Shown piece after piece: positions 128 to 42,515 of a stretch of 42,515 nucleotides of DNA. A program made the position numbers and the translations under genes. The notes under the pieces were generated by a model. The model did no database searches. It was not told the DNA's origin and was given only the letters and a program-made list of their open reading frames with translations. Origin of the DNA: Roseobacter sp. (GTDB lineage Bacteria > Pseudomonadota > Alphaproteobacteria > Rhodobacterales > Rhodobacteraceae); NCBI GenBank assembly GCA_018500125.2, contig JAHBAM020000105.1, positions 1 to 42,515 on the forward strand, given 5' to 3'. Positions within the stretch are counted from its first letter, which is position 1. The number at the start of each line of letters is the position of its first letter.

Positions 128-1774
128 ATGCTGCGGTCGCTAGATATTCGGGACATACTGCTGATTGATCACCTTGAGCTTGGGTTTGAGGCCGGGCTGA
201 ATGTGCTCACGGGCGAGACCGGCGCGGGCAAGTCGATCTTGCTGGATTCGCTCGGGTTTGTGCTTGGGTGGCGCGGGCGCGCCGAGCTTGTGCGCAGTGG
301 CGCAAGTCAGGGCGAAGTAACGGCTGTGTTCGAGCTGCCCGAGGGGCACGCGGCCTTTGCTGTGCTTGAGGAGGCCGGTATCGCGCAGGCGCGCGAGCTG
401 ATTTTGCGGCGGATCAACACAAGTGACGGGCGCAAGACCGCCTGGGTCAATGACCGGCGTTGCTCTGGGGATGTGTTGCGGGCGCTGTCGGAGCATTTGG
501 TCGAGCTGCACGGGCAGAACGACGATCGCGGTTTGCTCAATCCGCGCGGCCACCGCAGTCTTCTGGATGATTTTGCAGGGCTTGGCCCCAAGCTGGCCGA
601 GCTGCGCGGGCTATGGCGGGCGCGGGCCAAGGCCGAGGCCGAGCGTGCTGCGGCGCAGGCGGCTGTGGCGGCTTTGCGCGCCGAGGAGGAGTATTTGCGC
701 TATGCGGTGACCGAGCTTGACAAGCTTGCGCCGCAGGCGGGCGAGGATGAGGCGCTGGACCGTCAGCGCCGCCAGATGCAGGGCGCGGAGAAGGTGCGGG
801 GCGATATTCTGCGCGCGTTGAGCGGGCTGCGGGACGAGAACGGCGCCGAGGACAGCGCCGCCGCGGCTTTGCGCTGGCTCGAAGGGGTTGGCGGCGAGGC
901 CGGAGAGATGCTGGGCGAGGCCATCGAGGCGCTCGAGCGGGGATTGAACGAGCTGGCACTGGCTTCGGACGCTGTGGAAGATCGGCTGCGAGAGATGGAG
1001 TTCAGCCCCGCCGATCTTGAAGCGTGCGAAGAGCGGCTGTTTGCCATTCGCGGGCTGGCGCGCAAGTATGAGGTGCAGCCGGACGATCTTGCGGATCATG
1101 CCGAGACTTTGCGGGCCAAGTTGGAGCAGGTGGATGCGAGCGATGCCGCGCTTGGTGCATTGGGCGCGGCCTGTGAGGCGGCGCAGGCGGCCTATCTGGC
1201 GGCGGCTGAAGAACTGAGCACAGCGCGGCGCAAGGCGGCGGCAGAGCTTGACAGCGCCGTGATGGCCGAGCTTGCCCCACTCAAGATGGAACGGGCGGTC
1301 TTTACCACAGAGATCACTGCGGGCGAAGCCGGCCCCGAGGGTTTTGACGCGGTGAGCTTTGTGGTTGCGACCAACCCCGGCGCACCGACGGGGCCTTTGG
1401 CCAAGATCGCCTCGGGCGGCGAGCTGAGCCGGTTTTTGCTGGCGTTGAAGGTATGTCTGACCGGGGGCGCGAGCGATGTGACGATGATTTTTGATGAGAT
1501 CGACCGTGGCGTTGGCGGGGCAACCGCCGATGCTGTGGGCCGCCGGCTGCGCGCGCTTGGCGAGGGTGGGCAGGTGCTTGTTGTGACCCATTCGCCGCAG
1601 GTTGCGGCGCTTGGGCAGCATCATTGGCGGGTCGAAAAGAGCGTCACCGACGGGCAGACGCTTTCGACGGTGAAGCCTTTGGGGCCTGAGGAGCGTATTG
1701 ACGAGGTGGCGCGTATGATTTCAGGCGACACCATCACGCATGAGGCACGGGCGGCGGCGAAAGCGCTGTTGTAG
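128..1774 (+). CDS. recN: DNA repair protein RecN
   Basis: N-terminal Walker A GETGAGKSILLDSLGFVLG; C-terminal ASGGELSRFLLALK signature and FDEIDRGVGGATADAVG; coiled-coil middle. Confidence 0.97.
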   Translation: MLRSLDIRDILLIDHLELGFEAGLNVLTGETGAGKSILLDSLGFVLGWRGRAELVRSGASQGEVTAVFELPEGHAAFAVLEEAGIAQARELILRRINTSDGRKTAWVNDRRCSGDVLRALSEHLVELHGQNDDRGLLNPRGHRSLLDDFAGLGPKLAELRGLWRARAKAEAERAAAQAAVAALRAEEEYLRYAVTELDKLAPQAGEDEALDRQRRQMQGAEKVRGDILRALSGLRDENGAEDSAAAALRWLEGVGGEAGEMLGEAIEALERGLNELALASDAVEDRLREMEFSPADLEACEERLFAIRGLARKYEVQPDDLADHAETLRAKLEQVDASDAALGALGAACEAAQAAYLAAAEELSTARRKAAAELDSAVMAELAPLKMERAVFTTEITAGEAGPEGFDAVSFVVATNPGAPTGPLAKIASGGELSRFLLALKVCLTGGASDVTMIFDEIDRGVGGATADAVGRRLRALGEGGQVLVVTHSPQVAALGQHHWRVEKSVTDGQTLSTVKPLGPEERIDEVARMISGDTITHEARAAAKALL

Positions 1775-41634: not shown

Positions 41635-42048
41635 TCAGGGCTTTTTGATCGGCACGCCGTAGAGTTCGAGGCGGTGGCCTTTGAGGGTATAGCCGAGCTT
41701 TTGGGCAATGCGCTCTTGCAGGGCTTCGATCTCCTCATCGACAAATTCGATCACTTCGCCGGAGTTCATATCAATCAGGTGGTCGTGATGCTCGCGTTCG
41801 GCGTCTTCATAGCGGGCGCGTCCATCGCCGAACTCGAGCTTGTCCAGAATGCCGGCTTCGTCAAACAGCTTGACGGTGCGATAGACCGTGGCGATCGAAA
41901 TCCCGGCGTCGAGCGCGGCGGCGCGGGCGTAAAGCTCTTCGACATCGGGGTGGTCATCGGAGTCTTCCAGCACGCTGGCGATGATGCGGCGCTGGCCTGT
42001 CATGCGCAGGCCCTTGGCTTCGCAGCGGGAGGTGATTGTATCGGTCAT
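41635..42048 (-). CDS. fur: Fur-family transcriptional regulator (Fur/Mur type)
   Basis: GLRMTGQRRIIASVLEDSDDHPDVEELYARAAALDAGISIATVYRTVKLF, EHHDHLIDMNSGEVIEF. Confidence 0.92.
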   Translation of the reverse strand: MTDTITSRCEAKGLRMTGQRRIIASVLEDSDDHPDVEELYARAAALDAGISIATVYRTVKLFDEAGILDKLEFGDGRARYEDAEREHHDHLIDMNSGEVIEFVDEEIEALQERIAQKLGYTLKGHRLELYGVPIKKP

Positions 42049-42129
42049 GGCATGGCTCGTTCTGGCTTTGGATCGGTTTAGCCGAGCCGGGCGCGCTTGG
42101 CCAGAGGGGCGCGCCCGAGGGCGGCGATT

Positions 42130-42496
42130 TCAGAGGCAGAGCTGGCCCTGCATGGTTTTGACCGCTGCGCCGGTGAGGGTGACGCCTGTGTCCTGCGCCT
42201 TTACCGTGATCTTTGAGGGGCGGCCCATGTCTTCGCCCTGCCAGATCGTGAGCGTGAGCGGCTTGGCCGAGAGCGCGGCCAGATAGGCCCCGAGCGTGGC
42301 GCAGGCAGAGCCTGTGGCGGGGTCTTCGGGGATGTTGTCGAGCGGGGCAAACATCCGGGCGTGCAGGCTCTGGCCGCTGCGCACATAGGCAAACTGCGCA
42401 AAATCGAGCGCGCCTTGAAACCGGGCCGCGCCCTCGCGAAAGGCGGCGGTTTCGGGGGTGCAAGCGGCGAGCGCCGCGCGGCTGTGCAGCTCTGTC
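42130..42496 (-). CDS. PhzF-family protein, C-terminal fragment truncated by contig end
   Basis: IPEDPATGSACATLGAYLA PhzF motif; N-terminal MCIRDR of the ORF is adapter-derived. Confidence 0.85.
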
Positions 42497-42515
42497 CTGT
42501 CTCTTATACACATCT
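42497..42515. other. Nextera/Tn5 mosaic-end adapter sequence (assembly contamination)
   Basis: Exact 19-mer CTGTCTCTTATACACATCT at contig terminus. Confidence 0.98.

Follow-up and report, generated by a model that had tools for sequence, protein, structure and literature searches.

The contig analysed here ends in 19 bases within which two reverse-strand reading frames begin, and this raises the question of whether these bases are bacterial DNA at all and whether the frames that start in them are genuine. The window, by which we mean the whole stretch of DNA that was analysed, is 42,515 nucleotides long.

Identity of the last 19 bases and their copies across the assembly

Positions 42497-42515 of the window read exactly CTGTCTCTTATACACATCT and run to its last base. 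This was the sole match in the whole window when up to three mismatches were allowed, and no match was found in 100 dinucleotide-preserving shuffles. Since the window is the entire contig C12 (1-42515), its last base, and with it the 19-mer, marks a genuine contig end. The Tn5MErev oligonucleotide used for tagmentation libraries consists of letter-for-letter the same 19 bases, and in the full adapters the arms TCGTCGGCAGCGTC and GTCTCGTGGGCTCGG precede the reverse complement of this 19-mer (PMC4248319). We consider it practically certain that the contig terminates in 19 bases of Nextera (Tn5 tagmentation) adapter that escaped trimming, and not in bacterial DNA. The basis for this reading is the identity itself, the placement of the 19-mer at contig ends across the genome, its continuation into both sequencing arms and the fact that homology is lost precisely at the junction; no evidence against it was found. 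A first-pass annotation had already assigned these bases to the Nextera/Tn5 mosaic end, and the assignment is borne out by the exact match and by 92 copies at contig ends, several of which run on into the i5 or i7 arms.

The source assembly is a draft of 2,688,051 bases in 264 contigs (528 ends) and is 83% complete. The exact 19-mer was found on 78 of these contigs, 14 of which are affected at both ends, and all 92 copies are terminal, 91 of them no more than 17 bases from the end of their contig and the remaining one, on contig C203, with 70 bases beyond. All copies point outward from the genomic DNA, with 53 of 53 forward copies at right ends and 39 of 39 reverse copies at left ends, and the reversed pattern, used as a control in the same assembly, gave 0 matches compared with 92 for the 19-mer. 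Additionally, contig C194 carries a partial copy comprising the first 12 bases (5'-CTGTCTCTTATA) 7 bases before its end, so that adapter or its 12-base part is present at 93 of the 528 ends (~18%). The genomic bases that precede the 19-mer differ at every end that was read, as random tagmentation predicts.

At other contigs of the assembly, the overhangs past the 19-mer are mostly GACGCTGCCGACGA (the Illumina i5 arm) or CCGAGCCCACGAGAC (the i7 arm), which correspond, in reverse complement, to the Tn5ME-A and Tn5ME-B arms (PMC4248319). Small deviations were present at some overhangs, for example GACGCC in place of GACGCT, a lone T at C174 and errors in C203, and these fit sequencing errors at read ends. 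In the longest overhang, that of C203, an i7-like and index-like stretch is followed by TCGTATGCCGT...GCTTG and then by poly-A. We take this tail to be the product of running off the end of the i7/P7 adapter, with errors.

The same bases would have another source if a Tn5/IS50 element or a terminal repeat of natural origin started at 42497, as the 19-bp mosaic end was derived from IS50 end sequences; it is, however, a laboratory replacement for the wild-type ends (PMC4248319). Moreover, the copies are restricted to contig ends, and the overhangs that were read contain no transposon sequence and continue as Illumina i5/i7 arms. Neither a transposase nor a transposon body was found beside the 19-mer in these overhangs, and C12 itself ends at the 19th base. 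We regard a natural element as extremely improbable.

The opposite end of C12 was also considered. Its left end begins with GACAG, identical to the final five bases of the reversed mosaic end, and it was tried as a truncated adapter; this candidate was rejected, as a relative aligns to it as coding sequence from base 3. Judged from the alignment, at most two bases would be doubtful there, and we do not interpret this end as adapter. Searching plasmids with the contig end of C12 gave no match.

A phzF gene divided between two contigs

The 127-residue frame that enters the adapter (Table 1) matches PhzC-PhzF (PF02567) with an E-value of 3e-19 from its residue 9 onwards, covering profile positions 161-281 of 281; the score of 69.9 bits, against a curated cut-off of 27, refers to the C-terminal 121 positions only. 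A complete PhzC-PhzF protein with both halves is absent from C12. The front part of phzF, corresponding to profile positions 1-102, was found on contig C169, where it runs into an adapter end of its own.

Among the relatives searched, the closest phzF is that of the Lentibacter MAG L031, with 84% identity at the protein level. When both contigs were aligned with L031, the homology of C12 began exactly at 42496 (L031 base 3000), and that of C169 ended at L031 base 2881. Both limits coincide exactly with the adapter junctions and the two ends face each other, leaving ~118 bp (~39 codons) of phzF unassembled between them. The first-pass annotation had placed the end of genomic sequence at or before 42496; the alignment fixes 42496 as the last genomic base.

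The gap bears on a further alternative, namely that the strain was mutagenised and carries a real mosaic end from an engineered transposon inserted in phzF. Transposons of the EZ-Tn5 type do carry the same mosaic end (PMC4901475), but 118 bp are missing between C12 and C169 where a 9-bp target duplication would be expected of such an insertion. In addition, it would have to account for 92 sites in one genome, none of which is followed by a visible cassette and several of which continue as sequencing arms, and we give an engineered insertion no better a chance than a natural element. Least credible of all is a chance resemblance of native phzF coding sequence to the 19-mer: the frame is open across all 19 bases (MCIRDR), but the shuffles gave no match, L031 has the unrelated tcgggctgcccttcacgct at the same place with a good match from the base right past the junction onward, and relatives encode GLPFTLTEL... 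where the C12 frame reads MCIRDRTEL.

Table 1. Features at the right end of the window, with positions counted from its first base.
Feature	Position	Strand	Basis
Nextera/Tn5 mosaic-end adapter read-through, CTGTCTCTTATACACATCT, almost certainly non-genomic	42497..42515	+	Exact match; Tn5MErev identity; 92 assembly copies
Artefactual MCIRDR start on phzF fragment, 127 aa, ATG within adapter	42130..42513	-	ORF list
Artefactual ORF MYKRQD, 185 aa, GTG within adapter	41954..42511	-	No Pfam match
Genuine phzF-like C-terminal part, 5' side cut by contig end	42130..42496	-	PF02567; 83% DNA identity to L031 from 42496

Reading frames that start or end in the adapter

On the reverse strand the adapter reads AGATGTGTATAAGAGACAG, which offers start codons in two frames, ATG for MCIRD and GTG for MYKRQ, and a stop in the third. 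In the phzF frame, adapter bases 42513-42497 account for MCIRD and for the first two positions of the following R codon. Both of the reverse-strand frames described in the first-pass annotation, beginning MCIRDR and MYKRQD, were found (Table 1). Its view that the start of the PhzF frame is artefactual agrees with our results, as the Pfam match begins only after the adapter-encoded residues and the N-terminal part lies on C169. For the overlapping frame, the claim of an artefactual start also stands, but it needs refinement: since the 185-residue translation has no Pfam match and the frame overlaps both phzF and fur/zur, most likely the frame as a whole, and not just its start, is spurious.

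Similar effects were observed at other ends. In 1.5-kb loci at 30 adapter ends, the longest open frame enters the 19-mer in 18 cases, giving the tails LSLIHI, CLLYTS or VSYTH, and starts inside it in 10 (six with MCIRD and four with DVYKRQ or MYKRQ). A literature search for the artefact peptides MCIRDR and MCIRD found no paper, and the matches for DVYKRQ, as far as their titles and abstracts tell, concern engineered insertions or fusions.

The importance of these observations is limited to data hygiene. At adapter ends, gene models acquire spurious N-termini (MCIRD..., MYKRQ...) or C-terminal tails (...LSLIHI, ...CLLYTS, ...VSYTH), and such adapter-encoded protein ends can reach protein databases. 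In the present case the practical cost is that one phzF is shown as two fragments with adapter-encoded ends. The gene models at the 93 affected contig ends should be trimmed.

Origin of the adapter ends, wider occurrence and comparison with known systems

We infer the read-level cause of the adapter ends as follows. Tn5 would have cut the template right behind base 42496 and joined the mosaic-end oligonucleotide there during library preparation, and short-insert reads would have passed through the insert into the adapter, which was presumably left untrimmed. Because no fragment bridged the site, as might happen where coverage is locally low, the assembler would have carried the contig on into the mosaic end. 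It would then have halted, usually at the last base of the mosaic end, after which the i5 and i7 arms differ, or once support was exhausted. The in-frame ATG and GTG of AGATGTGTATAAGAGACAG would subsequently serve gene callers as false starts. The artefact is of an ordinary, well-known assembly kind, and nothing at the site is biologically novel. A systematic loss of certain sequences from tagmentation libraries, in place of random low coverage, appears an unlikely reason for the adapter-ended breaks.

The same 19-mer was also observed in other public data and is common among viral contigs. In IMG/VR, at least 120 stretches contain it exactly; of the 127 copies in the matches listed, 125 are no more than 100 bases away from an end of the stretch examined, and most continue with CCGAGC or GACGCT (the i5 or i7 arms). 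One IMG/VR stretch, L121, has an internal copy behind an i5 arm, with two Ns nearby. Another internal case was found in CP051231.1, titled as the chromosome of Oceanicola sp. MAG m2, where the dimer CTGTCTCTTATACACATCT-GATGTGTATAAGAGACAG interrupts a gene at ~448615-448633. A similar coding stretch (22 protein letters) is repeated on either side of this dimer, which probably arose when two pieces ending in adapter were wrongly joined.

As for relatives, the 19-mer was absent from two of the three nearest ones searched; a survey of 60 genomes for it serves as a generic negative control only, because these genomes are not close kin. RecN (window 128-1774) shows ~26-31% identity to the listed same-genus and same-family relatives, with ~28-31% for the same-genus genomes, and in rpoB only short pieces align with the listed same-genus genomes, at ~66-73% DNA identity. 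In contrast, rpoB of the assembly (contig C126) has 91% DNA identity to a Lentibacter MAG. On these comparisons the listed kin group appears ill-fitting, and the assembly most likely represents a member of the Rhodobacteraceae near Lentibacter. We also observed a two-base gap relative to Lentibacter in rpoB (C126:3300-5400, near position 620 of that locus), which breaks the frame and is probably an assembly error.

Compared with the PhzC-PhzF family, the C-terminal 121 residues encoded on C12 agree with the family and with its relatives in the Rhodobacteraceae; unlike complete members, the C12 copy is without the N-terminal part and has the 19 adapter bases in its place. Compared with the Illumina Nextera/Tn5 adapter, C12 differs from the full-length form in stopping at base 19, where the arm is not visible. 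It nevertheless carries the same 19 bases, the Tn5ME-A and Tn5ME-B arms continue at other contig ends, and the junctions are varied.
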